A stretch of 64,000 nucleotides of DNA from positions 62,001 through 126,000 of IMG/VR virus record IMGVR_UViG_3300017963_000197; one strand, written 5' to 3'. The position numbers were made by a program, and so were the translations under genes. This document shows positions 20,083 through 32,708 of this stretch, piece by piece. Within the stretch, counting starts at the first letter, position 1; the number at the start of each line of letters is the position of its first letter. The notes beneath the pieces are model-generated. The model made no database searches, had not been told where the DNA came from, and saw only the letters and a list, made by a program, of their open reading frames with translations. Source of the stretch: a virus.

Positions 20083-20088
20083 GTTCTA

Positions 20089-20097
20089 GATTACACC
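20089..20097 (-). promoter_or_regulatory. GGTGTAATC promoter element
   Basis: Minus strand, 6 nt before ATG 20082, immediately beside tRNA-Leu(TAA). Confidence 0.5.
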
Positions 20098-20099
20098 GA

Positions 20100-20187
20100 T
20101 GGTGCGAGAGGCGGGAATCGAACCCGCACGACCTCTCGGCCAGAAGATTTTAAGTCTCCCGCGTCTGCCTAGTTCCGCCACTCTCGC
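20100..20187 (-). tRNA. tRNA-Leu (TAA)
   Basis: GCGAGAG/CTCTCGC acceptor, ACCA end, long variable arm, anticodon loop CTTAAAA. Confidence 0.92.
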
Positions 20188-20213
20188 AAATGGTTTTGTG
20201 TGATTATATAAAC

Positions 20214-20480: not shown

Positions 20481-20481
20481 G

Positions 20482-20805: not shown

Positions 20806-20888
20806 TGCGAGAAGAGGGACTCGAACCCTCACGCCCTCTCGGACACCTGATTTTGAGTCAGGCGCGTCTGCCATTCCGCCACTCTCGC
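20806..20888 (-). tRNA. tRNA-Leu (CAA)
   Basis: GCGAGAG/TTCTCGC acceptor, long variable arm, anticodon arm CCTGA-CTCAAAA-TCAGG. Confidence 0.92.
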
Positions 20889-20925
20889 AAAATAATACTG
20901 AAAAGACTTATACGGAGATATAGAT

Positions 20926-21177
20926 ATGGACCCAAGAAAAGCCTTTGAGCAAGCTCTTACAGCCTCCAAACCTCTGGCCGAAGCCTTCGAGGAACTTGAC
21001 CGGGCCTCAGACCACGCCAATGGCCTACAACTGGCGCTCGTTAATGCTCGCCGCGTTATGAAAATGGAAGAGATTGACCGGAACGAGATAAGAGAGATCG
21101 AAAAGCTCACGCGCACCGCCGAGACCCTTCTGAGTGATGTAAACGACTTTAGATACAAGTTGAAGATGAAGTATTAA
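20926..21177 (+). CDS. coiled-coil protein with PRKAFE N-terminus, 83 aa
   Basis: Begins MDPRKAFEQALTASKPLAEA, resembling the 32.7-kb protein (MGKPRKAFEEALSKEA). The rest is a continuous helix (FEELDRASDHANGLQLALV, DRNEIREIEKLTRTAETLL). Its end overlaps the phosphopantetheinyl transferase gene tail-to-tail by 29 nt. A ribosome site GGAGATATAG precedes the ATG. Probably a small structural or packaged protein. Confidence 0.6.
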   Translation: MDPRKAFEQALTASKPLAEAFEELDRASDHANGLQLALVNARRVMKMEEIDRNEIREIEKLTRTAETLLSDVNDFRYKLKMKY

Positions 21178-21616
21178 CACACTCACATTCCGCCAACACA
21201 GCGACGGCTACAAACCTTCCGTGGTAGGCAAATGACTCTTGACCCCCTGGCATCCTAGAGGCCAGCAATCGAGCCTCTGTGTCCCGTTTGCCTATTGCCG
21301 TTATGGACCCAGCGGTCCAGGCGTGCGCGAAGTCATCGTTCGTCTCCACGCATACCTGAACCGTCTGACGCTTCCAATGAACCGCCACTTTATCCGCCCA
21401 TCCTTGTACCTCGAATAATACGGGGATGAACACCGCCGACGGGTCGAGCCTTTTACATGCCTTGTAGGCTGCTTCTTTACAGGCCCATAACCCCCACCGA
21501 ATGTGCCTGGACTCGATCAGTTGTTTCTCGGCTCTTGTAAAGATTCGAGAGTCGGAACGAGGATGCACTCGAAACGTTCTGGGGTCTCTCAGGTCTACGA
21601 TGTCGTTACCGACCAT
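21149..21616 (-). CDS. 4'-phosphopantetheinyl transferase / holo-ACP synthase family
   Basis: These enzymes transfer phosphopantetheine from CoA to a Ser on acyl carrier proteins. The metal-site motif VGNDIVDL (residues 2-9) and the W-x-x-KE-x-x-x-K motif (WACKEAAYKA, Lys47/Glu48) are both present. At 155 aa it is a single-domain form between AcpS and Sfp size. ATG 21616 is chosen because it starts exactly at the motif. Its partner ACP gene overlaps by 11 nt directly upstream. Confidence 0.9.
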   Translation of the reverse strand: MVGNDIVDLRDPRTFRVHPRSDSRIFTRAEKQLIESRHIRWGLWACKEAAYKACKRLDPSAVFIPVLFEVQGWADKVAVHWKRQTVQVCVETNDDFAHAWTAGSITAIGKRDTEARLLASRMPGGQESFAYHGRFVAVAVLAECECVNTSSSTCI

Positions 21617-21860
21617 CGAGCTTGGCCGCAATCATGTCGATAACGTGATGCATGTGCTTGAAAGTGACAACCTCTTCGTCCGTCAACTCGATCCCAAACT
21701 CATCCTCGAATTCCATAGAGGCGTCTACCATGTGGGAGGAATCGACCCCAAGCTCCTTTTTTAAATGTTGTTCGGGCGTCGCTGTTGGCATGGCTTCCGG
21801 CTCGTCCGAGTAAGGAGTAAGAATCTCGACCACCTTCTGTAAAATTTCATCCTTGCTCAT
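21606..21860 (-). CDS. acyl carrier protein
   Basis: An 84-aa acidic four-helix protein with the carrier motif GVDSSHMVDASMEFEDEFGI; Ser41 is the predicted phosphopantetheine site. The helix after the Ser (EFEDEFGIEL) is typical of ACPs. It sits between the ketosynthase-like gene (ATG overlap) and the transferase that would activate it. Substrate chemistry is unknown. Confidence 0.92.
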   Translation of the reverse strand: MSKDEILQKVVEILTPYSDEPEAMPTATPEQHLKKELGVDSSHMVDASMEFEDEFGIELTDEEVVTFKHMHHVIDMIAAKLDGR

Positions 21861-23116
21861 CACTTCTCCCATTTGCGTAACACAATCACGCTGTTCACAT
21901 CACCGAAGCCGAAGTTTGCTTTGAGTGCAATGTAGAGAGGCTTCTCCTCCGTTTGGTGGGGGACACGTTGATCCTCAATTTCGGGGATAGGATCTTCACA
22001 GTTTATCGAAGGGTGTATGAAATCGCCTCTCAACATGAGACAACAAGCGGCGACCTCGATTCCTCCCGCTGCCTGAAGCGTGTGACCCAAGAGAGACTTC
22101 GTTGAATGTATGTAAGGGAGGTCGGAGTCCCCGTAAACCTCTCGCCAACACCGTACTTCCAGGGCGTCTGCCATCGTGCCAGTCAGATGGCCGTTTATGA
22201 AGCTGACATCGAGAGGTCTGATTTTCGCGTTGACGAGAGCCTTTCGTATACAACGCTGGACGGCGTTCAGGTTTGGGGCCGTCATGCTGCCGCCCTCCCG
22301 TTGCGCCCCGCAGTTCGTGTGGTGTCCTAACACTTCGGCGTAGATTCGAGCACCTCTACGTTCCGCGCTTTCGAGTCTTTCGAGCACCACAACACCAGCC
22401 CCGCCGCTGGGCACGAGGCCGGTTGCCGACTTGCTCATAGGGCGGCTCGCTTTATGAGGCTCGTCCTTGTAGCCTTTCGCTGTCACACGTACAGCGTCCA
22501 GGGCCGCCCAGGCGTAGGGTCCGCTGCCTTCGGCCCCGCCGCACACCATCCTGTCGGCGTAGCCGTGTTGGATATGCCTCACACCATCCAGGATGGCCGC
22601 CAGCCCGGTAGCGCTCGTGGAACTGGCAGCGATTACCTTGTTCCCCAAACCTAGAAACTCAGCGGTACGGGCCACAATGCCTTCTGACAAGGTCCGGTGA
22701 ACATGCTTTGCACCCAGCCTACGCACGTTGCCTGAGACAACGGCCGGGGACAAATCTTCCGCCAAAGCGCGATGTCCGGCATGGCTCCCTGAGCCGATTA
22801 CGGCTCCTGAGTCCCAGTCAGGAGGCCCCTCTCCCAAAGGCGGGACCTCAAGCCCGGCGTCTTCCCATGCCTTGACCGCAGCGATACAACCATAACGGTT
22901 GACATCGTCCATGTAGGCCAACCGGTTTTTTGGGAAGTAGACTTCCGCCAACGTGTCCGTGGCCTCCGGGATACCCGCCACTTGGCACCGGAAGTTTTCC
23001 AAATCTTCGTGATAGGCGATTCCGGACCGACCCTCCCGCAGATTCTTTTCGAACTCGCCTAAAGTGTTACCAAGGGCGGTAACAACACCCAGCCCGGTGA
23101 TCACGACCCTTTCCAT
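21860..23116 (-). CDS. beta-ketoacyl-ACP synthase (FabF-type fold), Ser at nucleophile position
   Basis: The 418-aa protein has the thiolase-fold layout of FabF/KAS II: N-terminal RVVITGLGVVTALGN, NGHLTGT (His about 307), KSLLGH (Lys339/His344) and the C-terminal NFGFGDVNS loop. At the active-site Cys position, aligning on the downstream Gly of STSATG, the residue appears to be Ser (about 168). That would block normal condensation. It may act like decarboxylating (KSQ) or chain-length-factor homologs, or use Ser. First gene of an ACP/transferase operon. Confidence 0.9.
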   Translation of the reverse strand: MERVVITGLGVVTALGNTLGEFEKNLREGRSGIAYHEDLENFRCQVAGIPEATDTLAEVYFPKNRLAYMDDVNRYGCIAAVKAWEDAGLEVPPLGEGPPDWDSGAVIGSGSHAGHRALAEDLSPAVVSGNVRRLGAKHVHRTLSEGIVARTAEFLGLGNKVIAASSTSATGLAAILDGVRHIQHGYADRMVCGGAEGSGPYAWAALDAVRVTAKGYKDEPHKASRPMSKSATGLVPSGGAGVVVLERLESAERRGARIYAEVLGHHTNCGAQREGGSMTAPNLNAVQRCIRKALVNAKIRPLDVSFINGHLTGTMADALEVRCWREVYGDSDLPYIHSTKSLLGHTLQAAGGIEVAACCLMLRGDFIHPSINCEDPIPEIEDQRVPHQTEEKPLYIALKANFGFGDVNSVIVLRKWEK

Positions 23117-23123
23117 GTCGCGG

Positions 23124-23132
23124 TTCTACACC
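23124..23132 (-). promoter_or_regulatory. GGTGTAGAA promoter element of the ketosynthase operon
   Basis: GGTGTAGAACCGCGAC leads directly into ATG 23116 with a 7-nt gap; no ribosome-binding site. Confidence 0.5.
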
Positions 23133-23710
23133 GAATTATATGGTTCTTTACCTGACCACTGAGCCAATGTGATTTTGGACCGCCAAACGCCACCAATATG
23201 GGCGGCGATACTTCGCGGCGGCTGGTCCAGTGTGGCTCTTTCGTAAGTGACCATCAGCGACTCACCGGCCCACACAGGCGCGAGAGTATGCAGGTTTCTG
23301 AGCCACTGGCACGTTCGTACCAACAAGATGGATTGTGTTCTCAAGGCACCATGGTCGTCTGAGGGCAACGTCTTATAGTTGTCCATGGCGTAAGCTTCTT
23401 GTTCGTCGATCACCTTACGAGGCGTTGCCGCTCTCAGAGTATGATGCCTGATCATTGCTTCGGATGCTGGCGTAGGAAAGAGGTCTCTAACAGAGTCCAA
23501 GAACATGGCTTTGGCTCCGTCCGGGTTACACAGGGAGAACACGTGGAGCCAGTATTGAGGAAACCGGCGATTCAGGTTGTACCACTCCGCCATGGTATCG
23601 ACGCTGGGCTTCTCGACGAGCGTAACCCCATGCTCGCACCAGTAAGCGTCCGGCCCCTCCGCCCGTAGCGTTTTGAGCCTGTCAAGAAGCTCAGTGACCT
23701 GTGGTTCCAC
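23126..23710 (-). CDS. sulfotransferase-like or unknown enzyme of the acyl cluster, 194 aa
   Basis: The C-terminal third (SLMVTYERATLDQPPRSIAAHIGG) resembles the YE-x-L...dP...i..flG segment of sulfotransferases. The usual N-terminal PAPS-binding loop is not evident. A His-His pair (MIRHHTLRA) and WYNLNRRFPQYWLHVF lie in the middle. Its stop overlaps the ketosynthase operon promoter, so it is read through into that operon. Alternative: an unrelated helical enzyme. Confidence 0.45.
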   Translation of the reverse strand: MEPQVTELLDRLKTLRAEGPDAYWCEHGVTLVEKPSVDTMAEWYNLNRRFPQYWLHVFSLCNPDGAKAMFLDSVRDLFPTPASEAMIRHHTLRAATPRKVIDEQEAYAMDNYKTLPSDDHGALRTQSILLVRTCQWLRNLHTLAPVWAGESLMVTYERATLDQPPRSIAAHIGGVWRSKITLAQWSGKEPYNSV

Positions 23711-23712
23711 GT

Positions 23713-24372
23713 TTAGATAGGACCGCTGGGCTGGTACTCTATGATGGACATCTCGCAGAAGAGATCCACGGTGGCCGCTCCAGAACTCTGCGATTGGACT
23801 TCAATCTCAATGTTACCGCCCTTCCCCTTGTTCTTCGTTATGGAAATACGATAACCGTCCATCTCTTCGTAGTAGGTGGCTGTAGCGGTCAAAGTGGAAA
23901 CGCCAACGCTCATACGACCCATCGCACCGCCGCTTTTATAACAGGGGTAGTATGAAGGGCCATCGGGGGGAAGCATCGTTATTTGATACTTCATTGCCCA
24001 GATGCACGGATCATTGGCAAACACGTACGATAGAACGACGAGCGGTCCCTTGGAGAAACCTGGAATGACGTTGGTAACTCTGTCGATTTTCAGGATCGAC
24101 GGGGCAGCGTCAAGGGTGGTCTGATCGGTAATTGAATCGAGGGAAACCCCAATGTCGATCGGCGCTCCACCACCTGCGATCGAGCCGCCGCTCGTGATTT
24201 GGATCTCGTTACCGGCGTCGTCCTGGGTGAATAATTCGGCTATCCCGCTTACGTCCTTGGCGTACAACCTGTGGATGTTTGCCAAGACTCCCGGTGTGGC
24301 CTGTTCGGAAAGGTCTACCGGAACAGCCTCCTGACCGATAACGGTTCCTATTTCAGATTTCTTGACACCCAT
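23713..24372 (-). CDS. virion appendage/decoration-type protein, 219 aa
   Basis: The N-terminal region (LYAKDVSGIAELFTQDDAGN, then EIQITSGGS) closely matches that of the 488-aa fibre-cluster protein at 46.8 kb (VYSKNVGGVSELFAINDFGQ). The rest is beta-rich (ISITKNKGKGGNIEIEVQS, TVDLFCEMSIIEYQP), consistent with a jelly-roll-like virion domain. It lies outside the main fibre cluster, next to the lipid genes. Confidence 0.6.
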   Translation of the reverse strand: MGVKKSEIGTVIGQEAVPVDLSEQATPGVLANIHRLYAKDVSGIAELFTQDDAGNEIQITSGGSIAGGGAPIDIGVSLDSITDQTTLDAAPSILKIDRVTNVIPGFSKGPLVVLSYVFANDPCIWAMKYQITMLPPDGPSYYPCYKSGGAMGRMSVGVSTLTATATYYEEMDGYRISITKNKGKGGNIEIEVQSQSSGAATVDLFCEMSIIEYQPSGPI

Positions 24373-24430
24373 TGCTGCTCCATTTCTCTACAATGTGAGA
24401 TATGAACACGCGGATTTACAAAACAATAAA

Positions 24431-24517
24431 CGGTGCTGGGGACAGGAGTCGAACCTGCACGGTCTCTCGACCACTGGAGTCTGAGTCCAGCGCGGCTGCC
24501 TATTACGCCACCCCAGC
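24431..24517 (-). tRNA. tRNA-Leu (CAG)
   Basis: GCTGGGG/CCCCAGC acceptor, long variable arm, anticodon arm CTGGA-CTCAGAC-TCCAG. Confidence 0.92.
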
Positions 24518-24520
24518 ATG

Positions 24521-24590
24521 TTTCCTAGTAGGCCACATCCATTGGGTACCCTGAGTAGGATTCGAACCTACGTGGAACGCTACTAGGAAA
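24521..24590 (-). ncRNA. Stem-closed RNA containing only a tRNA T arm
   Basis: TTTCCTAGTAG and CTACTAGGAAA pair perfectly over 11 bp. Inside, CCAC/GTGG pairs, followed by T arm GTAGG-TTCGAAT-CCTAC and the palindrome GGGTACCC. No acceptor, D or anticodon arm exists. It fills the gap between two tRNAs exactly, so it would be released by their processing. Confidence 0.5.
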
Positions 24591-24667
24591 TGGTACGGGG
24601 AGCCGGGGTCGAACCGACGACTTCCTCCTTGTAAGAGAGGCACTCTGGCCAACTGAGTTATCCCCGC
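24591..24667 (-). tRNA. tRNA-Val (TAC)
   Basis: GCGGGGA/TCCCCGT acceptor, ACCA end, anticodon arm CCTCT-CTTACAA-GGAGG. Confidence 0.92.
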
Positions 24668-24700
24668 ATAAACTTATCGTCTCGGTGTATCAAAGCCGGT

Positions 24701-24883
24701 ATGGAACACCACGAGATGTTAAACCTGTTTGCCGAAATCTCGGTTCTGGCCGATGAGAGGGTAGGCACCCTTTCGAAAGAACAGAGACTGCGAAAGATCA
24801 TGGAGATCTGCGCTCAAGCCGGGATAGGGGTACCAGCTTGTATAGGAGCTACGGGACCCGCCTACCCGCCCGAAAGGAGCTAA
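24701..24883 (+). CDS. hypothetical small protein, 60 aa
   Basis: A GGTGTATCA element lies about 10 nt before the ATG. The first 40 residues form an amphipathic helix (MLNLFAEISVLADERVG, EQRLRKIMEICAQ). The C-terminus contains ACIGATGPAYPPERS. It is immediately followed, after a good ribosome site, by the decarboxylase gene. Not recognised. Confidence 0.5.
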   Translation: MEHHEMLNLFAEISVLADERVGTLSKEQRLRKIMEICAQAGIGVPACIGATGPAYPPERS

Positions 24884-24884
24884 C

Positions 24885-25961
24885 ATGTCAGATCAACCGA
24901 CCGTCATCGCCCTGAAAGAGCTTCTCAAGAAACACGAAGGCTGGAAGGCCCTGTTAGAAGACTCCATCTCAGAGGCCAAGAAAGAGGCCGTGAGGGGTGG
25001 GATTCGGGACGCCGACAAGTTCCCAGAAGGCTTGGAAGGCAAACACGGTTATTATCACTACCTGAACGAGATGGTCCAGTGGTGCCCCAGAGAAGACTAC
25101 GACAAGGAGTGCTTCTACATGCTGGCCAAGTTCTACTGGCTGTTAGACCAGCCGTCTGGCCGGAAGCTCCAAGAGTCGGACGAGTTCAATACCTGGATGC
25201 GTAACTTTGCCGACGACTGGGGAAGCTACCTGAACACAACCGACTCGGCCAAGTACATCCAGACCTTTATTGACGACCCGGCCTTCAATGCATGGCAGTA
25301 CATGAAGAACCCGTCGGGCTGGCTCACCTTCAACCAGTTCTTCGGCCGGGAAATCAGCCAGGGCCTACGTCCCGTGGCCGGTATGAAGAACGACGACATT
25401 ATCACATCCCCGGCCGACTCCGTCTTCAAGGAGAAGTTCCACATCACCGACGATGACGAGATCATCATAAAGCTCACCCACCGGTACAAGATCATCGACC
25501 TGTTGGAGGACAGTCCCTTCAAGGAGGACTTCCGGGGTGGCCTCTTCATGCATTCGTTCCTGGGTCCGAACGACTACCACCGGTTCCGTGCTCCCGTGGC
25601 CGGGACCGTCCTTGAGTGCCGGGCCATCCAACAGAACGTCTATCTGGATGTGCAAATCCGGGACGGACATTTCACCGCTCCGGACGGGGGTGGGTACGAG
25701 TTCACCCAGACCCGTGGGCTGATCATCTTCGACTCGCCCGTTGGCCTAGTGGCCGTTCTGCCGATCGGCATGGCTCAGGTCTCGTCCGTGAACATGACCG
25801 CCGTGGAAGGGGCCTATCTCCAGAAGGGTGAGGAGTTCGGCTACTTCTTGTTTGGCGGCTCCGACATTATCATGCTCTTCCAGGCCGACAGCGGGGTCGA
25901 GATCACCTGTGCGCCGGGCATCCACTACAACTGTGGGATGTGCGTGGGAGAGGTGCTCTAG
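24885..25961 (+). CDS. psd: phosphatidylserine decarboxylase family protein
   Basis: Pyruvoyl-dependent decarboxylases of this family convert phosphatidylserine to phosphatidylethanolamine. They self-cleave at a Gly-Ser. Here the conserved core LGPNDYHRFRAPVAGTV (about 224-240) and the C-terminal cleavage region EFGYFLFGGSDIIMLF (Gly-Gly-Ser about 323-325) are intact. WLTFNQFFGRE upstream matches the family. There is no obvious membrane anchor. A GAAAGGAGC ribosome site precedes the ATG. It may alter host lipids or decarboxylate another amino-acid conjugate; the nearby ACP/ketosynthase genes suggest acyl chemistry. Confidence 0.88.
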   Translation: MSDQPTVIALKELLKKHEGWKALLEDSISEAKKEAVRGGIRDADKFPEGLEGKHGYYHYLNEMVQWCPREDYDKECFYMLAKFYWLLDQPSGRKLQESDEFNTWMRNFADDWGSYLNTTDSAKYIQTFIDDPAFNAWQYMKNPSGWLTFNQFFGREISQGLRPVAGMKNDDIITSPADSVFKEKFHITDDDEIIIKLTHRYKIIDLLEDSPFKEDFRGGLFMHSFLGPNDYHRFRAPVAGTVLECRAIQQNVYLDVQIRDGHFTAPDGGGYEFTQTRGLIIFDSPVGLVAVLPIGMAQVSSVNMTAVEGAYLQKGEEFGYFLFGGSDIIMLFQADSGVEITCAPGIHYNCGMCVGEVL

Positions 25962-26251
25962 CGTTTCCGCCAGCCGCCGTTCGCTCTAGACCGCCAATAC
26001 TGAATCCAGTTAGTGCTACAGGTCTTGCACCGGTATAGCGAAGCATCTCGTATAGGTCGTCTGTCCCGCTCCAGGAGTCCCTTACAGTCAGGGCACTCGT
26101 ACCCCCCGTCTGTCTTGGTGGGCTGTTCTTCGGACCCGTACAAGCCAGCGTGGAGACGCCGACCCGGAGGGTGTTCGAGAGCCTCGAAAAGCCGGTTTGA
26201 CGCTTTCGCTACAGCGTCAGGATCGCTGAGTAATTTTGGTTTGTCGGACAT
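25958..26251 (-). CDS. zinc-ribbon protein, 97 aa
   Basis: From ATG 26251 (MSDKPKLLSDPDAVAKASNR). A helical N-terminus is followed by a four-Cys ribbon (YECPDCKG ... YRCKTCSTNWIQYW) and a basic end (RSRANGGWRKR). The upstream AATTATACCC may be its promoter. Its stop overlaps the convergent decarboxylase gene by 4 nt. Probably nucleic-acid binding. Confidence 0.6.
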   Translation of the reverse strand: MSDKPKLLSDPDAVAKASNRLFEALEHPPGRRLHAGLYGSEEQPTKTDGGYECPDCKGLLERDRRPIRDASLYRCKTCSTNWIQYWRSRANGGWRKR

Positions 26252-26261
26252 GGGTATAATT

Positions 26262-26367
26262 GATTGGCCTTGAAACGCACAATCTGGCCTGATCGGGACC
26301 AGCACGGGTGCCCTGTGCATCTTCACCCTACCCGGCACCGAATAGGGTACGTGTTCCAGGGCCAATC
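26262..26367 (-). ncRNA. Structured RNA candidate next to tmRNA
   Basis: GATTGGCC and GGCCAATC, 8-bp perfect complements, enclose about 90 nt with an inner GGTGCC/GGCACC pair and ACCCTA/TAGGGT hairpin. It begins where the tmRNA 3' end stops, so it may be co-transcribed or be the tmRNA trailer. Confidence 0.4.
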
Positions 26368-26369
26368 GG

Positions 26370-26747
26370 TGGAGTCGGCGGGAATCGAACCCGCGTCCGA
26401 AAGTGCTACTAATTACCACCTCTACGTGTGTAGCTCCATTTCGTGTCTTTGACAGGAACACCACCGGAGCGGGCAAAACCTGGGGGCGGCCTCACGGCTG
26501 CCACTTCCACCACTGGTCTAAACAACCTTGATTGAGGACGACCAGAGACTGCGCCTCAACTGCACCGGCTAATCGTCGCCCCATCCAAAGACGCCGGATT
26601 CTCTGGCGGGACGCCCTAGGCCGCGATGGCCAGGGGTGCTGCGTTATCGTTCGCAGTTATGTTTGAGCGGCTTGATAACCCGGCCAGCCGATCAACCGGG
26701 ACACGCAGTAGTAAATTCCACACCTCCGTCGAAACCTTTACGACCCC
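26370..26747 (-). ncRNA. ssrA: tmRNA (transfer-messenger RNA)
   Basis: tmRNA rescues stalled ribosomes and tags the nascent chain for proteolysis. The 5' end GGGGTCG pairs with 3' CGACTCC. The 5' region GTAAAGGTTTCGACGG and the 3' T arm CGGG-TTCGATT-CCCG are hallmark tmRNA sequences. The tag frame (26616-26654) reads ANDNAAPLAIAA then TAG. About 378 nt in one piece. CCA is not encoded (CCG). A GGTGTAATATAG element lies just upstream. Confidence 0.93.
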
Positions 26748-26762
26748 ATATGGGACAACCTA

Positions 26763-26771
26763 TATTACACC
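26763..26771 (-). promoter_or_regulatory. GGTGTAATA promoter element of tmRNA
   Basis: It ends 15 nt before the tmRNA 5' end. Because tmRNA is not translated, this copy shows that the element acts in transcription. Confidence 0.6.
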
Positions 26772-26779
26772 TCCCACAA

Positions 26780-26898
26780 GTTTTGTCATTTCGTCATTCC
26801 AACATTTCCACACTCAATGAAATAAGGCTCGAACCTTGGAAACAATGGAATGACAAAACTCCGACCAATCTAATTTTCGCGTGACACAATGACAAAAC
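26780..26898. repeat. Triple AATGACAAAAC repeat upstream of tmRNA
   Basis: The 11-mer occurs at 26849-26859 and 26888-26898 on the plus strand and inverted at 26780-26790. The arrangement between tmRNA and a tRNA gene suggests operator sites. Confidence 0.4.
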
Positions 26899-26902
26899 TC
26901 AG

Positions 26903-26974
26903 TGGAGAGGACGGGAATCGAACCCGCCAAAAGTTCCGTGCGAGGGAACCCCGACCCCATGTCTGTTCCTCCCC
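26903..26974 (-). tRNA. tRNA-Ala (CGC)
   Basis: GGGGAGG/CCTCTCC acceptor, short D arm (GAC/GTC), anticodon arm GTTCC-CTCGCAC-GGAAC. Confidence 0.87.
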
Positions 26975-26981
26975 TAATTTG

Positions 26982-27052
26982 TGGAGAGTAGGGGAATCGA
27001 ACCCCTCGCATCCGGCTTGCAAGGCCAGACCGACCCCTTGTCTGTACTCCCC
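26982..27052 (-). tRNA. tRNA-Ala (TGC)
   Basis: GGGGAGT/ACTCTCC acceptor, same short D arm as its neighbour, anticodon arm CTGGC-CTTGCAA-GCCGG. Confidence 0.9.
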
Positions 27053-27579
27053 TAAAACTCCTCTATCGGGGTTTCGTTGTAATGCTTCTTATTCTGAATC
27101 TGGATGGCCCCAGAAATTTTTTGCCCTGGCAGTTCAAGAGGCCCCGGCTTATACGTCAGGCCGATAGTAGGGAGCCAGAGCCTAAGAGCCTCCTCGCAAA
27201 GTCCTTCGTACGTTAGTATTTCCAAGTGCGCGTCCGTGGACCTGATGTCTTGTATGTTTCGAGCGATGGTCGCTGTCCTATGGAAAAGGAACTCTTGTTG
27301 GTTCCTCCTCATACTACGAAGATTGGCAACGGGTTCTCTTACCATGACGATACACACGACTTGTCCGTACCCTTTGCCTTTCAAGGCGGCCACCCAAGAG
27401 TCCAAGTCTTGGTGGAAGATGCATACGTAAGGCCCCTTTGCGTCAGGGATGTCTTCTACAGTTCCCGGTTGATTGGCACTGCCTTCTCCAGCACAACCGC
27501 AACGCACCAAGATGGAAGCGAGGAGGCGGTTCCCACTACATATAGGCCCGCATACCACGTAAGCTGTGTTGTTCTCCAA
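27052..27579 (-). CDS. sulfotransferase-like P-loop protein, 175 aa
   Basis: An N-terminal strand-loop VVCGPICSGNRLLASIL fits the 5'-phosphosulfate loop of PAPS sulfotransferases. IVMVREPVANLRSMRR fits the 3'-phosphate site (R-x-P...S), and LEILTYEGLCEEALRLWL the family C-terminal segment. I chose TTG 27579, 6 nt after AGGAGA. Starting further upstream would overlap the previous gene by about 30 nt. Substrate unknown; a small kinase is an alternative. Confidence 0.6.
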   Translation of the reverse strand: MENNTAYVVCGPICSGNRLLASILVRCGCAGEGSANQPGTVEDIPDAKGPYVCIFHQDLDSWVAALKGKGYGQVVCIVMVREPVANLRSMRRNQQEFLFHRTATIARNIQDIRSTDAHLEILTYEGLCEEALRLWLPTIGLTYKPGPLELPGQKISGAIQIQNKKHYNETPIEEF

Positions 27580-27589
27580 AAGCTCTCTC

Positions 27590-27856
27590 CTAACCAACCG
27601 CTTCCGCGATCCACTCGCCAAGCTGTGCCCGGCGTTCTAACTCTCTGGTTGTCTTGCTCAGAATCACACGAGCCGTTCTACGCTGTTTCCAGGTTAGGCC
27701 ACCGGCCCGTGCCCACCACTCGGGAGTCTCTTTCGTAAAGCCTCGCTCCCAAGGTGTTAGAGTTAACTCTTCGAACAGACGGTGCCTGGAGATCAGGATC
27801 ATGGCCCGACACAGGCCGCCGTCATCTAACTTCAATATCTCAGGGTGGTGCGCCAT
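27590..27856 (-). CDS. hypothetical protein, 88 aa
   Basis: MAHHPEILKLDDGGLCRAMI at the start, then a Trp-rich middle (LTPWERGFTKETPEWWARAG) and a basic helical end (KQRRTARVILSKTTRELERR). The ATG is 8 nt from a GGTGTAATA element (27865-27873). It is the first of two minus genes, the second being sulfotransferase-like. Not recognised. Confidence 0.5.
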   Translation of the reverse strand: MAHHPEILKLDDGGLCRAMILISRHRLFEELTLTPWERGFTKETPEWWARAGGLTWKQRRTARVILSKTTRELERRAQLGEWIAEAVG

Positions 27857-27864
27857 CCCCTCAA

Positions 27865-27873
27865 TATTACACC
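27865..27873 (-). promoter_or_regulatory. GGTGTAATA promoter element
   Basis: GGTGTAATATTGAGGGG precedes ATG 27856, combining the element with a purine-rich ribosome-like site. Confidence 0.5.
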
Positions 27874-27880
27874 GGAAATC

Positions 27881-27915
27881 GTCAAAACGCTAGTGCGAAA
27901 ATTCGCCGTTTTGAC
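27881..27915. repeat. Inverted repeat GTCAAAACG/CGTTTTGAC
   Basis: A 9-bp perfect inverted repeat with a nested GCGAAAATTCGC palindrome, just upstream of a GGTGTAATA element. The position fits an operator. Confidence 0.45.
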
Positions 27916-27981
27916 ACTCAAAACCGGCGCTATTGCGCCACCCATGTGTAATGAATTCAAGCCGATAGGGCTTGTAAATGG

Positions 27982-28227
27982 TCAACGCATGAACAACCCA
28001 CTGCGACTGTCCCGAAACTGGTTGACTCTTTTAACCGCCTTTAGAAGGTTCTTGGCGTCGTGGAGAACATCCTCCGAGAGACCCTGTACCGGGTCCCACT
28101 TCCCGTCCGAATCGCCCATCAAAGTCTCGTCCAGTTCCGCCAAGTTGCTCTTGAGGGACCGCATGGCCTTGAGAATAGCACCCTGTAGGCGTGGGATGGA
28201 CGCCGTCCGACGGTCGTAGGAGTACAT
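27982..28227 (-). CDS. small protein with MYSYDRR tag, 81 aa
   Basis: Begins MYSYDRRTASIPRLQGAIL. The rest is a predicted helical hairpin (LKAMRSLKSNLAELDETLMG, EDVLHDAKNLLKAVKRVNQF). Fifth member of the tag group and the shortest, so the tag makes up much of the protein. No known domain. Confidence 0.6.
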   Translation of the reverse strand: MYSYDRRTASIPRLQGAILKAMRSLKSNLAELDETLMGDSDGKWDPVQGLSEDVLHDAKNLLKAVKRVNQFRDSRSGLFMR

Positions 28228-28252
28228 GCTTTAGTGTCAACATAAGAAGATT

Positions 28253-28327
28253 TGGCGGGGATGACGAGGATCGAACTCGCCTCACCGGATCGACAATCCG
28301 GCCGCTTCACCAGATGCGTACATCCCC
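28253..28327 (-). tRNA. tRNA-Asp (GTC)
   Basis: GGGGATG/CATCCCC acceptor, GCCA end, anticodon arm CCGGA-TTGTCGA-TCCGG. Confidence 0.92.
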
Positions 28328-28332
28328 TTGGT

Positions 28333-28905
28333 TTACTTTCGGTTCGGCCGCCCACGACCTTTATTCAGAGCCTTATAAGTGGGCGTCAAAGCATGGCAGT
28401 TAGGGCATATCAATCTAAGATTCTCTTCAGTGTTGTTTTTATGGTCTCCGTCCACATGATCGACCTCAAGAGGTATCTTCTGACCCATCCACGTCTTTCG
28501 GCCACAACTCGCACATCTGTACTCTCTAGTCCGTAACAGATACCGGCGAATATTGGCTGAATTTTTGATATCTTCTAGTTTCTTCCGCCGACTGGAAAGA
28601 TGTACCCCCTCGTCGATACAGTCTCTACAATACTTGTTCTTACCCGACGGCTTGCCGCACGCAGCGCAATATCTCGGGTCCTTAATTACCCGGTGCCTCG
28701 TGAAGTTGACGTATTTACCCGCGCAGGAATGGTTACAAAATTTGCCATAGCGTTTCTCGTAAGGCAGAGGCTCCCCGCACAATTTACATTTAGGGGCAGC
28801 TTGTTCGTGTTTGCGTACGGCTTCGTCGTGCCTTTTTTGACGGCACTTGTCTAAGACTTTGCTAACCTTCGCGTAACCTTTCTTTCCCGCCGCGCTATGA
28901 TCCAT
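28333..28905 (-). CDS. HNH endonuclease with multiple zinc sites
   Basis: The 190-aa protein has N-terminal Cys clusters (CKLCGEPLPY, CNHSCAGKY, CAACGKPSGKNKYCRDC), then REYRCASCGRKTWMG and the HNH core PLEVDHVDGDHKNN...LICPNCHALT. It resembles phage and intron-type HNH homing nucleases. The ATG overlaps the last base of the tRNA-Thr gene, so the endonuclease sits exactly between tRNA genes. Confidence 0.88.
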   Translation of the reverse strand: MDHSAAGKKGYAKVSKVLDKCRQKRHDEAVRKHEQAAPKCKLCGEPLPYEKRYGKFCNHSCAGKYVNFTRHRVIKDPRYCAACGKPSGKNKYCRDCIDEGVHLSSRRKKLEDIKNSANIRRYLLRTREYRCASCGRKTWMGQKIPLEVDHVDGDHKNNTEENLRLICPNCHALTPTYKALNKGRGRPNRK

Positions 28906-28978
28906 GGAGCCGGTAGAGGGAATCGAACCCTCGTATCCTGTTTACAAGACAAGTGTTCTGCCATTGAACTATACCGGC
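28905..28978 (-). tRNA. tRNA-Thr (TGT)
   Basis: GCCGGTA/TACCGGC acceptor, TCCA end, anticodon arm CTTGT-CTTGTAA-ACAGG. Confidence 0.92.
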
Positions 28979-28997
28979 ATTCTCGTCACAATGTTAG

Positions 28998-29081
28998 TAC
29001 CGGGAACAGGAATCGAACCTGCACGCCCTTTCGAGCACCAGATCCTAAATCTGGCGTGTCTACCAGTTCCACCACCCCGGC
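28998..29081 (-). tRNA. tRNA-Leu (TAG)
   Basis: GCCGGGG/TCCCGGT acceptor with G-U ends, long variable arm, anticodon arm CCAGA-TTTAGGA-TCTGG. Confidence 0.9.
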
Positions 29082-29087
29082 ATAAAT

Positions 29088-29477
29088 TTATCGAGTTCTA
29101 CGTTCGCGCTCTCGTTCCCACTGCTTGAACAGGCGCTCCCCCTGTTTGAGACCGTTCTTCAAATCCCGCTCACCGCTTCGAATTCGAATCTCTTTCTCAC
29201 GCCGTCCGAACGACCCCTCGTAGTCGGCACCCTCGCTATAGTTGAGAGTAAGCTTTGCCGTCCCGTCTTCTAACAAGGAGTCCACGTTATCCAATGTAGC
29301 CGTTATATGGGACTCGTCTCCGTGCGACCCTTGCTTGGAATAATACATGATCCAGTAGCCGTCGTAGCTGGCTTCCCAAAACGAGCCACCAATTTTCATC
29401 AGTTCTTCGACCTTGTTCAGACGCTCTCGCGTATCTCCGGTCGCGAACCGTGCGGCTATCCGTGTTGCCTTGGTCAT
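29088..29477 (-). CDS. hypothetical protein with RIAARFA tag, 129 aa
   Basis: N-terminus MTKATRIAARFATGDTRERL resembles that of the ParB-fold protein at 62.3 kb (LRVAARFAARS). The middle is beta-rich and aromatic (SYDGYWIMYYSKQG, AKLTLNYSEGADYEGSFG) and the end strongly basic/helical (KQWERERERRTR). Function unknown; the shared N-terminus suggests common targeting. Confidence 0.55.
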   Translation of the reverse strand: MTKATRIAARFATGDTRERLNKVEELMKIGGSFWEASYDGYWIMYYSKQGSHGDESHITATLDNVDSLLEDGTAKLTLNYSEGADYEGSFGRREKEIRIRSGERDLKNGLKQGERLFKQWERERERRTR

Positions 29478-29510
29478 ACCAACCTAGGCTAACAAGAGAT
29501 TCTCTACTTG

Positions 29511-29583
29511 GGTTGACCGACGGGACTCGAACCCGCTCCTCCTGACCCACAATCAGGTGCTCTGCCAGTTGAGCTTCGGCCAA
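29511..29583 (-). tRNA. tRNA-His (GTG)
   Basis: TTGGCCG/CGGTCAA acceptor with C73 as expected for His, anticodon arm CCTGA-TTGTGGG-TCAGG. Confidence 0.88.
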
Positions 29584-29602
29584 AGGCTTGGTCTTACGAC
29601 CG

Positions 29603-29674
29603 GGCCTCCTGACGGGAATCGAACCCGCTAATACCTGACCCACAATCAGGCCGCTATCCATTTGCGTTCAGAAG
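29603..29674 (-). tRNA. tRNA with GTG anticodon (His-like), second copy
   Basis: CTTCTGA/TCAGGAG acceptor and the same anticodon arm CCTGA-TTGTGGG-TCAGG, but the discriminator is G instead of C, so histidine identity is doubtful. Confidence 0.75.
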
Positions 29675-29680
29675 GCATAG

Positions 29681-29824
29681 CCCCCGCTCCCGGAGTTGAA
29701 CCGGATTTGCATGTAAGAACCGCTGGATGCCTCCCGTGAAGGAGGCGAGTGAACAATCCTGAAGAGCATTTTTGCTCCAGCTTTAGCAGTGCTGGCGGGG
29801 GAACCACACCCCCAGTAAGCGGGG
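29681..29824 (-). ncRNA. tRNA-like RNA with large variable-arm insertion (GCT loop)
   Basis: Acceptor CCCCGCT/AGCGGGG; anticodon arm with loop CTGCTAA (GCT). A ~75-nt arm follows with TTGTTCACTC, hairpin GCCTCC/GGGAGGC, ATCCAGCGG and TTCTTACATGC, then T arm CCGG-TTCAACT-CCGG. It carries the ACTC-stem-TTACATGC module of the Y RNA-like set. Confidence 0.6.
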
Positions 29825-29832
29825 AAAGAGAA

Positions 29833-30027
29833 GGCAGACGACGAGTCAATGAACCCGTAGGCGGGCATCTTCATCGGGACCCCAGGAACCACACTCCGGT
29901 CTAAGACCGGCACAGGCACTCTGTGTTTCCTCTCGGGAACTCGCCCCGCACAGTGCCGTACGAGGCACGCATCCTGAGGGGATGAGATGAAACAGGACCC
30001 GAAAACGGGCATCTTCGTCGTTTGCCC
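29833..30027 (-). ncRNA. Permuted tRNA-like/Y RNA-like candidate, extended
   Basis: Ends GGGCAAACGAC and GTCGTCTGCC pair (one mismatch). Near the 3' end TTCATTGACTC matches the shared module. Inside are hairpins GTGCC/GGCAC, CTGTG/CACAG and CCGG-TCTTAGA-CCGG that could be T, acceptor and anticodon arms. A near-repeat GAYGAAGATGCCCG occurs near both ends. Confidence 0.5.
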
Positions 30028-30031
30028 TCTC

Positions 30032-30166
30032 TGGCGGGGCTTTGGGGAGTCGAACCCCAAAGAACGTGTAGACGTAACAAGGTTGCGTCCCTTTGTGTCA
30101 GATGCCTCTGACAGAGATGCGAGTATCGTGCGTCGAACAGTTTGGCGGCCTCCCGCCAAAAGCCCC
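30032..30166 (-). ncRNA. tRNA-like RNA with large variable-arm insertion
   Basis: Acceptor GGGGCTT/AAGCCCC, GCCA end, D-like hairpin GGCGG-GAGG-CCGCC and T loop TTCGACT are clear. Anticodon arm is unclear around TCGACGCACGA. The long arm has ATACTC and hairpin TGTCAGA-GGCA-TCTGACA. Confidence 0.55.
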
Positions 30167-30175
30167 TAAGTCAGT

Positions 30176-30320
30176 CCGCGTTCGAGTCGATCGACCTGTT
30201 TAGCGTTTGCTTGTTCCGTAGACAAGTGCCTGTACCAATTCGGCTATATTCCCGATGTGGAAATAGTGGGACTCGAACCCACATAACGTATGCATGTAAG
30301 ATCGTTCTGGATGAACGCGG
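30176..30320 (-). ncRNA. Circularly permuted tRNA-like RNA, Y RNA (YrlA-type) candidate
   Basis: Ends CCGCGTTC and GAACGCGG pair. Order inside: CTTACATGC, T arm GTGGG-TTCGAGT-CCCAC, acceptor 3' TATTTCC, A, short linker, acceptor 5' GGGAATA, D arm GCC...GGC, anticodon arm CTTGT-CTACGGA-ACAAG (ACG), then AACAGGTCGATCGACTC. It has the same layout as the RNA at 4838-4977, with different stem sequences that keep pairing. Confidence 0.75.
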
Positions 30321-30322
30321 AT

Positions 30323-30478
30323 TGGTCGGGACCCTAGGATTCGAACCTAGATTGCTTGTAAGCGCCGTGGAGGTGTTTCCTACTTTTAGGGAGCTATCCC
30401 ATATAAGAAACGAGTTACAGTGCTGGTCAGTATTGCTTCTGATTTACGTTCAGAATGGATGCCATCTCCATGGTCCCG
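30323..30478 (-). ncRNA. tRNA-like RNA with large variable-arm insertion (GTA loop)
   Basis: Acceptor CGGGACC/GGTCCCG with ACCA end, D hairpin GGA...TCC, anticodon arm TTCTGA-ACGTAAA-TCAGAA (GTA, C33). A ~90-nt arm follows with AACTC, stem GTTTC/GAAAC and CGCTTACAAGC, then T arm CTAGG-TTCGAAT-CCTAG. Confidence 0.6.
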
Positions 30479-30483
30479 ATATG

Positions 30484-30570
30484 CCGATCCTGTTAGGTGC
30501 CCGAAGACCCCGACCGTTTCAACGGTATGCACCGTCGAACGTTGTTGTCCGGGACCGGCGTCGGACGACA
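30484..30570 (-). ncRNA. Structured RNA candidate upstream of Y RNA-like cluster
   Basis: Contains a long imperfect hairpin (CGTTGT...GTCCG / CGGAC...ACAACG), ACGGT-GCAT-ACCGT and CTAACAGGATCG, the last resembling the shared AACAGGTCGATC segment. Fills the gap between tRNA-Gly and the cluster. Confidence 0.35.
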
Positions 30571-30574
30571 ACGT

Positions 30575-30648
30575 TGGTGCGGGTAGGGAGAATCGAACTC
30601 CCGTATCGTGCTTGGCAAGCACGCATTCTACCTCTGAATTATACCCGC
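30575..30648 (-). tRNA. tRNA-Gly (GCC)
   Basis: GCGGGTA/TACCCGC acceptor, ACCA end, anticodon arm CGTGC-TTGCCAA-GCACG. Confidence 0.93.
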
Positions 30649-30650
30649 AT

Positions 30651-30687
30651 GGCCTCGTTTTTCACCCCAGCGGCGAGGCCCCCGCTG
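30651..30687 (-). ncRNA. Compact H-type pseudoknot candidate
   Basis: On the minus strand CAGCGG, GGCCTCG, CCGCTG and CGAGGCC occur in that order, so two interleaved perfect stems (6 and 7 bp) form an H-type pseudoknot with a GGGTGAAAAA loop. Lies between tRNA-Pro and tRNA-Gly. Confidence 0.5.
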
Positions 30688-30721
30688 AACCAAACCCCGC
30701 CTTAAGAAGACGGACATAAGG

Positions 30722-30799
30722 TGGTCGGGATGGCCGGATTTGAACCGGCGACCCCCTGTCCCCCAGACAGGTGCCCTTGCCAGACTGGGCCACATCCCG
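30722..30799 (-). tRNA. tRNA-Pro (GGG)
   Basis: CGGGATG/CATCCCG acceptor, ACCA end, anticodon arm CCTGT-CTGGGGG-ACAGG. Only Pro tRNA seen in the window. Confidence 0.92.
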
Positions 30800-30800
30800 A

Positions 30801-30876
30801 TGGTGGCTGGGGTGGGAATCGAACCCACTACGCCCTGATTTTCAGTCAGGCGCTCTACCTTTTGAGCTACCCAGCC
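30801..30876 (-). tRNA. tRNA-Phe (GAA)
   Basis: GGCTGGG/CCCAGCC acceptor, ACCA end, anticodon arm CCTGA-CTGAAAA-TCAGG. Confidence 0.94.
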
Positions 30877-30879
30877 GTA

Positions 30880-30951
30880 GTGACCCTACGGAGAATCGAA
30901 CTCCGATCTGTGGAATGAAAGCCCACGGTTCTGCCATTAAACTATAGGGCC
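30880..30951 (-). tRNA. tRNA-Glu (TTC)
   Basis: GGCCCTA/TAGGGTC acceptor, anticodon arm GTGGG-CTTTCAT-TCCAC. Confidence 0.92.
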
Positions 30952-30954
30952 GAT

Positions 30955-31030
30955 TGGTACCCCTGACCGGACTTGAACCGGTGTTTGCGGCGTGAGAGGC
31001 CGCTGTCCTGGCCAACTAGACGACAGGGGC
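30955..31030 (-). tRNA. tRNA-Glu (CTC)
   Basis: GCCCCTG/CAGGGGT acceptor, ACCA end, anticodon arm GCGGC-CTCTCAC-GCCGC. Confidence 0.92.
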
Positions 31031-31035
31031 AAACA

Positions 31036-31110
31036 GGAGCCTACGACCGGGATCGAACCGGCCATTTCCTCATTACGAAAGAGGCGTCCCACCATTGAGA
31101 CTTCGTAGGC
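31036..31110 (-). tRNA. tRNA-Thr (CGT)
   Basis: GCCTACG/CGTAGGC acceptor, anticodon arm CCTCT-TTCGTAA-TGAGG. Confidence 0.92.
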
Positions 31111-31113
31111 GCG

Positions 31114-31184
31114 GCGGGCCAGTAGGGAATCGAACCCCATCCTCCGGATTTGGAATCCGGTTGGCTTCCATAGCCCCTGACCCG
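31114..31184 (-). tRNA. tRNA-Trp (CCA)
   Basis: CGGGTCA/TGGCCCG acceptor, short D arm, anticodon arm CCGGA-TTCCAAA-TCCGG. Discriminator is C, unusual for Trp. Confidence 0.85.
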
Positions 31185-31212
31185 TAAGAACGTTCGAGTT
31201 GCTTGAGCAGAT

Positions 31213-31287
31213 TGGTTAGCAAAATGGGATTCGAACCCATGCCTTTCCGGTTGATAGCCAGATGTCCTTCCACTGGACGATTCGCTT
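31213..31287 (-). tRNA. tRNA with ATC anticodon (Asp-like)
   Basis: AAGCGAA/TTTGCTA acceptor (one mismatch), ACCA end, anticodon arm TCTGG-CTATCAA-CCGGA. A34 in an Asp-box anticodon is highly unusual; the same ATC triplet appears in the tRNA-like RNA at 4979-5119. Confidence 0.75.
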
Positions 31288-31313
31288 GTATGCTCTGACA
31301 GATTGAACGCCCT

Positions 31314-31341
31314 TGGCGGTAAGCGAAGGAATCGAACCTTC
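31314..31341 (-). tRNA. tRNA 3'-end fragment (T arm + acceptor + CCA)
   Basis: GAAGG-TTCGATT-CCTTC, GCTTACC, G, CCA form a perfect 3' half. The expected 5' half is replaced by the end of the protein gene at 31340. Looks like an insertion or recombination scar in a former tRNA. Confidence 0.55.
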
Positions 31342-31699
31342 ATTGACCATCCTTACCTTCGTCGTCTCTCAAGTGGTCCCACAGCGTCGGCCTTTCTCCG
31401 ACCTCCACAGGCGTCGGCTCTGGGTCTGGCAGTGGCTTCGGGGTTTGAGCCTCCCACGCTAAATAAGGAGGGGGTATGATCGGCGCTGACGTGTCCGGAG
31501 GCACCGTCGAGAGAACCACATAACAAATGGTCCCGTCCGGCCCCTTCACACAAAGGTGGTGTTGCTCGTCCACGAAGATCTGCAACCCATTGCCCTGGAA
31601 GTTGTCTATATCAAACCTACCCACGGCGGTGATCGCAGCCGGTTGTTCGTCGGGAGGAATGTTACGATCAACCACACGATCGCGATCGTCATTAGGCAT
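31340..31699 (-). CDS. hypothetical proline-rich protein, 119 aa
   Basis: An acidic N-terminus (MPNDDRDRVVDRNIPPDEQP), a small beta region (LQIFVDEQHHLCVKGPDG, TICYVVLSTVP) and a proline-rich C-terminal half (PKPLPDPEPTPVEVGERP). The middle recalls the N-terminal 'FVDE...' module of the fibre-cluster proteins, so it may be a virion-associated small protein. The ATG is 7 nt from a GGTGTAGGA element (31707-31715). Its 3' end truncates a tRNA. Confidence 0.5.
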   Translation of the reverse strand: MPNDDRDRVVDRNIPPDEQPAAITAVGRFDIDNFQGNGLQIFVDEQHHLCVKGPDGTICYVVLSTVPPDTSAPIIPPPYLAWEAQTPKPLPDPEPTPVEVGERPTLWDHLRDDEGKDGQ

Positions 31700-31706
31700 G
31701 GCCCGA

Positions 31707-31715
31707 TCCTACACC
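31707..31715 (-). promoter_or_regulatory. GGTGTAGGA promoter element
   Basis: Minus strand, 7 nt before ATG 31699 and 2 nt from the tRNA-Asn 3' end. Confidence 0.45.
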
Positions 31716-31717
31716 GA

Positions 31718-31792
31718 TGGCTCCAGGGGAGGGAGTCGAACCCACGATGTACCGGTTAACAGCCGGTTGCCTTACCACTTGGCTACCCTGGA
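31718..31792 (-). tRNA. tRNA-Asn (GTT)
   Basis: TCCAGGG/CCCTGGA acceptor, GCCA end, anticodon arm ACCGG-CTGTTAA-CCGGT. Confidence 0.93.
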
Positions 31793-31799
31793 AAAAGAA

Positions 31800-31836
31800 G
31801 GGTGAGGAACCTTTTTGGGCCAAAAGGCCCTCACCC
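31800..31836 (-). terminator. Strong hairpin terminator
   Basis: GGGTGAGG/CCTCACCC with inner CCTTTT/AAAAGG forms a 14-bp interrupted stem. On the minus strand it is followed by TTCTTTTT, a U-run, ending the Tyr/Lys tRNA transcript. Confidence 0.65.
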
Positions 31837-31933
31837 CGTGAATCCGATTACTGCCGCTCGACCCGAAGATCGCACGACCGCAACCGTCTCACCGAAATCA
31901 TCAATTTTCAAAGAACAACGTCAACGCTTCTAC

Positions 31934-32008
31934 GGTGGGTGCAAAAGGACTCGAACCTTTTCAGACCAGCTTAAGAGGCTGGTGCCCGTCCAGTCGGGCG
32001 CTGCACCC
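31934..32008 (-). tRNA. tRNA-Lys (CTT)
   Basis: GGGTGCA/TGCACCC acceptor, anticodon arm CCAGC-CTCTTAA-GCTGG. Confidence 0.92.
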
Positions 32009-32015
32009 TATCTAT

Positions 32016-32090
32016 TGGTAGGGTCGGTGGGAATCGAACCCACAACCGTCGGGTTAAAAGCCCGCTGCTCTACCGTTGAGCCACGACCCC
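32016..32090 (-). tRNA. tRNA-Lys (TTT)
   Basis: GGGGTCG/CGACCCT acceptor, ACCA end, anticodon loop CTTTTAA. Confidence 0.92.
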
Positions 32091-32149
32091 ATAGTCGGGT
32101 TGCGGACTTTCGTTTTATTCGGCTCTTCATCGTTCTATCCTCTCTTTCT

Positions 32150-32238
32150 TGGTGGAGCGTGGTTGGAGTCGAACCACACACCCCGAAGGGAACGGGTTTA
32201 CAGCCCGTCAGCTTCTACCGGAAGCCTAATCACGCTCC
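32150..32238 (-). tRNA. tRNA-Tyr (GTA)
   Basis: GGAGCGT/ACGCTCC acceptor, ACCA end, long variable arm, anticodon loop CTGTAAA between GACGGG and CCCGTT. First gene of the tRNA array on its strand. Confidence 0.93.
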
Positions 32239-32708
32239 ATGAGTTCGTGCGCGTGGAGCGTAAATAAGATTCGTGTAATGGTTTTCGTAACATTGTGAAA
32301 ATTCTCCTTAAACGCCAAAGGCCACCTGGGTTTCCCTAGGCGGCCTTAGATCTCTCTCACGAGTAATAACTAATGGCCGCCTATGTATCCACCTCCAAAT
32401 TCTGGCGACTAATAAATTCGGAGGCGGGCATATGGGTCGTGACGCAACCGAGATATGCGGCTCCCAGGACGCACCACGACGCCGCAAGTTTCGCTTGCTT
32501 GGCGCGTATTGATAATGTGGTCCGGGAAGTCATTGTCTTAACTCACTGGTTACTCGTACAAGATATAAGTACACCTTGATGGGGTGTCTGGCAAGAGAAA
32601 TCGACGGCCTTATGTTCTTTTTTATTCAGACCCGCGAAATACCCAATGGTTATCGCTAGATGGCGTCAAGGACGCCTTGAGGCCGGTACATCCTTATATA
32701 GTAGGCCG
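32239..32708. other. Non-coding gap at the head of the tRNA array
   Basis: About 470 nt without a convincing gene. It holds a bidirectional hairpin (32318-32347, AAGGCC.CCTGGG/CCC.AGG.GGCCTT). Two short plus-strand frames (32373-32579 and 32584-32769) lack ribosome sites and recognisable products; the second also overlaps the end of the gene at 32709. Promoters for the leftward tRNA array probably lie here, but no GGTGTAATA element faces left. Confidence 0.5.
32318..32347. terminator. Bidirectional hairpin
   Basis: AAGGCC-A-CCTGGG, loop TTT, CCC-T-AGG-C-GGCCTT; imperfect 12-bp stem with A/T flanks. Confidence 0.5.

Follow-up and report, generated by a model that had tools for sequence, protein, structure and literature searches.

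Two circularly permuted tRNA-like RNAs encoded by a giant phage are, with a probability of roughly 0.8, phage Y RNAs related to the bacterial YrlA. Both lie on the minus strand of the window, the 64,000 nucleotides of viral DNA analysed here, which correspond to positions 62001-126000 of an incomplete IMG/VR virus record of 173,051 bases. ARAGORN found 42 tRNA genes and a tmRNA in the window, every one on the minus strand. A near-identical relative is present on a 416,539-base record, and a megablast search of window positions 20000-32300 against phages returned no match.

Fold and covariation of the permuted RNAs

The RNA at 30176-30320 is 145 nt long. On the minus strand its parts follow in the order T arm, 3' strand of the acceptor, short cap, 5' strand of the acceptor, D arm and anticodon arm, and both ends are paired through a closing domain. 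The features of this RNA and the position of the other permuted copy are as follows.

30176-30320, minus strand: permuted tRNA-like RNA, copy 2 (sequence, homolog covariation, copy comparison, covariance model, folding)
30313-30320, minus strand: Py', 5' strand of the outer closing stem, pairs with 30176-30183
30299-30305, minus strand: Px' (ACGATCT), 5' strand of the inner closing stem, with the conserved TACATGC next to it at 30292-30298
30282-30266, minus strand: T arm
30265-30259 and 30253-30247, minus strand: acceptor, with cap ACATC
30244-30228, minus strand: D arm
30226-30210, minus strand: anticodon arm
30184-30197, minus strand: Px 3' strand (AGGTCG) and conserved internal-loop strand ending GACTC (anchored pairing tests, homolog covariation, folding)
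30176-30183, minus strand: Py, 3' strand of the outer closing stem (sequence and homolog covariation)
4838-4976, minus strand: permuted tRNA-like RNA, copy 1, with anticodon loop CTAGAAA and ACCA after the acceptor

Read from 30320 to 30176, the sequence starts with CCGCGTTC (Py'), ATCCAGA, ACGATCT (Px'), TACATGC and ATACGTTAT, which lead into the T arm GTGGG-TTCGAGT-CCCAC. The middle consists of the acceptor strand TATTTCC, the cap ACATC, the acceptor strand GGGAATA, TA and the D arm GCC..GGC. The anticodon arm CTTGT-CTACGGA-ACAAG is then followed by CAAACGCTAAAC, AGGTCGATCGACTC (Px and loop) and GAACGCGG (Py). Except for the anticodon loop, the unconstrained minimum-energy fold was identical to the proposed structure (-45.3 kcal/mol, z -3.5), and 0/200 shuffled sequences folded as well. 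Unconstrained folding of the 4.8-kb copy also gave the permuted structure (z -5.0).

A first-pass annotation made from the sequence had proposed that the two copies share one permuted tRNA-like layout. Folding agreed with this, as did a covariance model (R2) trained on 17 other phage RNAs, from which both window copies and their closest relatives were left out. R2 scored the 30.2-kb copy at 107.5 bits and the 4.8-kb copy at 113.0 bits, and the next match in the window, at 40.9 bits, came from ordinary tRNA parts. Because tandem ordinary tRNAs cross-match R2 and the related model R1 at about 20-45 bits, only scores above this range were used. The stems of the two copies had also been said to differ throughout and still pair. 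Among 35 pairs compared, 13 had changed in both partners and 2 in a single partner, 19 were identical and 1 was lost. The 13 double changes uphold compensated change between the copies as internal evidence for a real fold; the claim went too far for the D stem, which is identical (GCC/GGC), and for the anticodon stem, which differs by 1 pair. Likewise, of the segments CTTACATGC and AACAGGTC..GACTC, described as conserved and unpaired, TACATGC and the internal loop GACTC fit that description, but the rest pairs as a second closing helix, Px (CGATCT/AGGTCG in the 30.2-kb copy, TGAATCT/AGGTTCA in the 4.8-kb copy).

Covariation was then assessed in homologs, the check that had been suggested. The first scan pattern matched chiefly ordinary tRNA-Val; the homolog search used the T arm and acceptor pairing, with the D and anticodon stems unused, and the ends of the aligned sequences were trimmed at the Py stem. 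In an alignment of 22 V-type phage homologs with the window copies included (A4), standard pairs filled 88.8% of cells compared with 66.1% in shuffles and <48% when slid. Both sides had changed in 26/32 pairs, and covariation was seen in every stem. With the window copies and near relatives left out (A5), 92.2% of cells were paired and 30/35 pairs showed double change; for the outer closing stem Py the values were 97.8% and 8/8. Over 29 permuted RNAs, Py pairing was 8.9 versus 4.2 +/- 0.28 in shuffles (0/1000). Pairing at Px positions 3-7 was 4.2 versus 1.99 +/- 0.21 (0/5000) with anchors hand-set with pairing in view, and a separate test with rule-set anchors also gave 0/5000 shuffles. The spacers of the closing domain are near-constant in these RNAs, at 13-14 bases on both strands. 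These analyses confirmed the RNA at 30176-30320 as a real permuted tRNA-like fold.

Linear sister RNAs in the window and elsewhere

The window contains seven copies of the closing (Y) domain, two in the permuted RNAs and five located in the variable region of tRNA scaffolds that are not permuted. These five linear relatives, the second closing helix and the identity of the RNA go beyond the first-pass annotation. ARAGORN and Rfam both missed the linear genes that flank the permuted copies in the window.

30323-30478, minus strand: linear tRNA-like RNA, Y domain in the variable region, ends ACCA
30032-30166, minus strand: linear tRNA-like RNA without a clear anticodon arm, CTACACG before the T arm, ends GCCA, Y domain by eye
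29680-29801, minus strand: linear tRNA-like RNA, Y domain (TACATGC), 5' acceptor assignment less certain
4979-5119, minus strand: linear tRNA-like RNA, Y domain (CACAAGC) by eye, ends TCCA
4690-4828, minus strand: linear tRNA-like RNA, Y domain (CACAAGC), ends ACC

In the linear RNAs the domain lies between the anticodon arm and the T arm and reads as 13 nt ending CTC, a Py hairpin (often GNRA), 13-14 nt and YACANGC. Px pairing in 49 linear candidates from all loci was 5.18 of 7, compared with 3.88 +/- 0.12 in shuffles. N73-C74 was found in 39/39 good linear copies, NCC in 21/39 and NCCA in 11/39. The order linear-permuted-linear is common to both window sites, and in locus L009 a linear copy is followed by a permuted one. 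From their sequences, the linear and permuted forms seem to be circular permutants of one RNA.

In loci L072, L129, L133, L151 and L251 the Y domain is located within the anticodon stem, and its deletion restores a perfect 5-bp stem in most of them. It looks as though the domain had been inserted into each of a number of tRNAs with many different identities. Two other tRNA-like elements occur in the window. At 24530-24605 (minus strand) an orphan T arm, GTAGG-TTCGAAT-CCTAC, lies within an inverted repeat of 11 bp (TTTCCTAGTAG / CTACTAGGAAA), with TCAGGGTACCCA after it, and no partner tRNA halves were found for it. At 31313-31357 (minus strand) there is a minihelix-like T arm and acceptor (GGTAAG, about 10 nt, T arm, GCTTACC GCC) without D or anticodon arms. 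Also amid the tRNA genes, the phage encodes a beta-ketoacyl synthase (21860-23116, minus strand) and a phosphatidylserine decarboxylase (24885-25961, plus strand).

The same genes could be read as permuted or interrupted tRNA genes, with the Y domain as a small intron. The tRNA halves would be joined by splicing, which for the permuted genes would yield a circle, and a working tRNA would be released by RNase P together with 3' processing, as with the permuted tRNAs of archaea and red algae. By eye, removal of the domain up to the point between TACAT and GC restores a perfect 5-bp anticodon stem and a U33 loop in L072, L129, L133 and L151. The N73-C74 and NCCA counts of the linear copies are consistent with such processing, as are NCCA after the acceptor in 9/32 permuted copies and an RtcB ligase in 11/29 RNA-bearing records. 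However, many permuted acceptors are capped by UUCG or other tight loops (<=6 nt in 13/32 copies), L180 and L223 hold copies without an anticodon arm, and L311 and L049 would, by eye, need another break point or none to restore the stem. Moreover, RtcB was not found in the other 18/29 records, the incomplete window record included. Because of the capped acceptors, the copies lacking an anticodon arm and the shifting break points, a mini-intron was not taken as the main reading and appears quite improbable beside the interpretation of these RNAs as Y RNAs.

Phage tRNA arrays rearrange, and from this it could be argued that the copies are decaying tRNA genes or pseudogenes broken by rearrangement. 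U33 is kept in 17/26 linear copies with a clear anticodon arm, and the non-U33 loops of the remaining 9/26 would suit decay. This reading is refuted by the strong covariation in all stems. It is also at odds with the roughly 29 permuted and 39 linear copies that share the domain and its near-constant spacers, and is scarcely credible.

The Ro60-like protein and its association with the RNAs

The proposed protein partner of the RNAs is encoded in the window.

9242-11125, minus strand: 627-aa protein with C-terminal vWA domain, Ro60/TROVE-like (Pfam and profile comparison)

The vWA domain was recognized by Pfam (PF13519, E 1.3e-7), and relatives of the protein were found in 20 viral loci. Profile A3, which represents the diverged protein family with a cyanobacterial plasmid homolog included, had as its top four PDB matches human RO60 (E 2e-10), the TROVE proteins 9l5y and 9kop (4e-9) and Xenopus Ro60 (6e-9). 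The alignments to human RO60, 9l5y and 9kop span TROVE and vWA, with 9l5y and 9kop aligned over 20-443. Since Pfam TROVE (PF05731) matches the protein of the window lineage in 0/28 records, the Ro60 assignment of this lineage rests on profile comparison. Pfam TROVE does recognize the protein of a second phage lineage.

Profile A1 detected the protein in 25/28 RNA-bearing viral records, which became 27/28 once A3 was run on the three misses. In the remaining record, G023 (392 kb), the RNA is present and no Ro60-like protein was detected. The controls were 31 large tRNA-rich viral records picked irrespective of the RNA. A1 matched one of them (1/31), which carries the RNA at 99 bits, and A3 detected the protein in 0/30 of the others. 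The R1/R2 score test assigns some protein-bearing records to neither side, and no P value is given because the RNA-bearing records come in part from related phages and the counts are not independent.

In the window the gene at 9242-11125 is 4.3 kb from one permuted RNA and 18.6 kb from the other. In loci L258, L260, L261 and L263 and in a Kovacikia plasmid (L267) the RNAs adjoin the gene. The latter, Kovacikia minuta plasmid pA, is a cyanobacterial megaplasmid with 33 tRNA genes beside the Ro60-like gene and a YrlA-like RNA (32.7 bits). Pfam TROVE genes were found in 4/30 control records, and in two of these (L308 and L311) they are flanked directly by permuted RNAs with the variant motif TTACTTCG where others have TTACANGC. 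Together with L312, these loci represent the second phage lineage, with TROVE or TROVE-like genes. Additional permuted tRNA-like RNAs, whose closing sequences differ again, were seen in L313 around 5577 and in L314, where no Ro60-like protein was detected.

The association with the protein is correlational, and the RNAs might instead be of the two-piece tmRNA kind, or some other tRNA-like RNA linked to the Ro60-like protein only incidentally. Permuted two-piece tmRNA has the same T arm-acceptor-gap-acceptor order, and a weak beta_tmRNA match (18.8 bits) was obtained. However, there is no above-cut-off Rfam tmRNA match at 30176-30320, an anticodon arm is present, and an ordinary tmRNA already exists in the window at 26368-26747. 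The tmRNA candidate was rejected based on the missing match at the site and the ordinary tmRNA elsewhere. As for an incidental link, the RNAs lie next to TROVE-type genes in both protein lineages. Such alternatives are considered unlikely, and a Y RNA remains the preferred identity.

Proposed function and relation to known Y RNAs

As Y RNAs, the permuted copies would consist of a tRNA-like body opened in the variable region, with both predicted ends of the processed RNA meeting in the Y stem. This stem would comprise Py as its outer helix, an internal loop that is conserved and reads ACTC on one strand, Px as its inner helix and then TACANGC. Judging from the sequences, the stem presumably binds the predicted Ro60/Rsr-like ring protein that the phage itself encodes (9242-11125). 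In YrlA the tRNA-like body gates Ro60 and anchors it to PNPase; by analogy the body of the phage RNAs may act as effector or tether, so that these RNAs would hold the Ro60 ring of the phage and offer a tRNA-like surface to a putative partner nuclease. In the five nearby linear RNAs the same Y domain is a variable-region hairpin, which would make them a circular permutant with the 5' and 3' termini of a tRNA. On this view the phage would produce a few kinds of Ro60-Y RNA particle in infected cells to deal with RNA that is damaged or misfolded, in all likelihood tRNA, with a presumed benefit to the phage.

A more tentative proposal, and on balance a doubtful one, is that the same Y RNA exists as two natural circular permutants. 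The ends of one would lie in the stem that binds Ro60; the other would have the ends of a mature tRNA (N73-C74, in many cases CCA) and frequently a complete anticodon arm. This linear form could then be a tRNA mimic tethered to the phage Ro60 and directed at tRNA-processing, charging or tRNA-cutting enzymes, for example as an anticodon-nuclease decoy or sensor.

These results suggest that many large phages may run their own Ro60-Y RNA system beside their tRNA arrays, with several RNAs each, and that a protein subfamily missed by Pfam TROVE belongs to it. For Y RNAs it would mean a second topology as well as an anticodon arm, with implications for their origin from tRNAs. It also bears on why a phage would carry RNA surveillance in infection, when hosts cut tRNAs as a defence.

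YrlA is composed of a basal stem that holds Rsr and a tRNA-like domain with D, T and acceptor arms; this domain binds PNPase and directs the nuclease to structured RNA (PMC8394870). The phage RNAs match Rfam YrlA (RF02553) in the order T arm, capped acceptor, D arm and in the pairing of their 5' and 3' ends in a Y stem (anchored tests, covariation, folding). A Ro60/Rsr-type gene adjoins the RNAs in several relatives and is 4-19 kb away in the window. Unlike YrlA, they have TACANGC and are opened in the variable region; each genome has several copies, a linear permutant occurs, and the anticodon arm is complete in most copies. This arm, with U33 in many copies, counts against the Y RNA reading. 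The YrlA model scored the window copy at 19.8 bits and phage RNAs with the anticodon-stem layout at 44.9, 41.0, 37.3 and 34.2 bits (E 8e-7 to 1e-3). No RNA in this set reached the Rfam cut-off of 69 bits, and they are therefore called a Y RNA-like variant rather than YrlA members.

The Salmonella rsr-yrlBA-rtcBA operon responds to cut tRNAs, and a decoy role has been proposed for its tRNA-like domain (PMC7790460). The phages resemble it in having a Ro60-type protein and Y RNAs in one genome, with RtcB in about a third of records; they differ in that RtcB was not found in most records and in their divergent vWA protein missed by Pfam TROVE. A TROVE protein has been reported in a small subset of jumbo phages and, in cells, as an RNA-repair platform with a tRNA-like partner, in the relevant passage of PMC7824862. 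Similarly, a passage of PMC7765460 notes a Ro60-like protein in a Vibrio jumbo phage and cites YrlA for several phages. Neither passage mentions these RNAs, the vWA subfamily or the linear form. The literature searched, which excluded the main Y RNA papers and so allows for an earlier description, contained no V-type permuted RNA with an anticodon arm and no linear permutant. The intact anticodon arm in a Y RNA-like RNA and the circular permutant with tRNA ends appear to be new.

Permuted tRNA genes and two-piece tmRNA share circularly permuted tRNA parts with the phage RNAs, but in the latter the acceptor is often capped, the ends lie in a conserved stem resembling a protein-binding site, no tag frame is expected, and there is no consistent splice point. 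Metazoan Y RNAs have an outer stem, an internal loop with an ACUU-like strand and an inner stem. These Ro60-bound RNAs would share the stem-loop-stem order of the phage RNAs and, unlike them, have no tRNA-like body.
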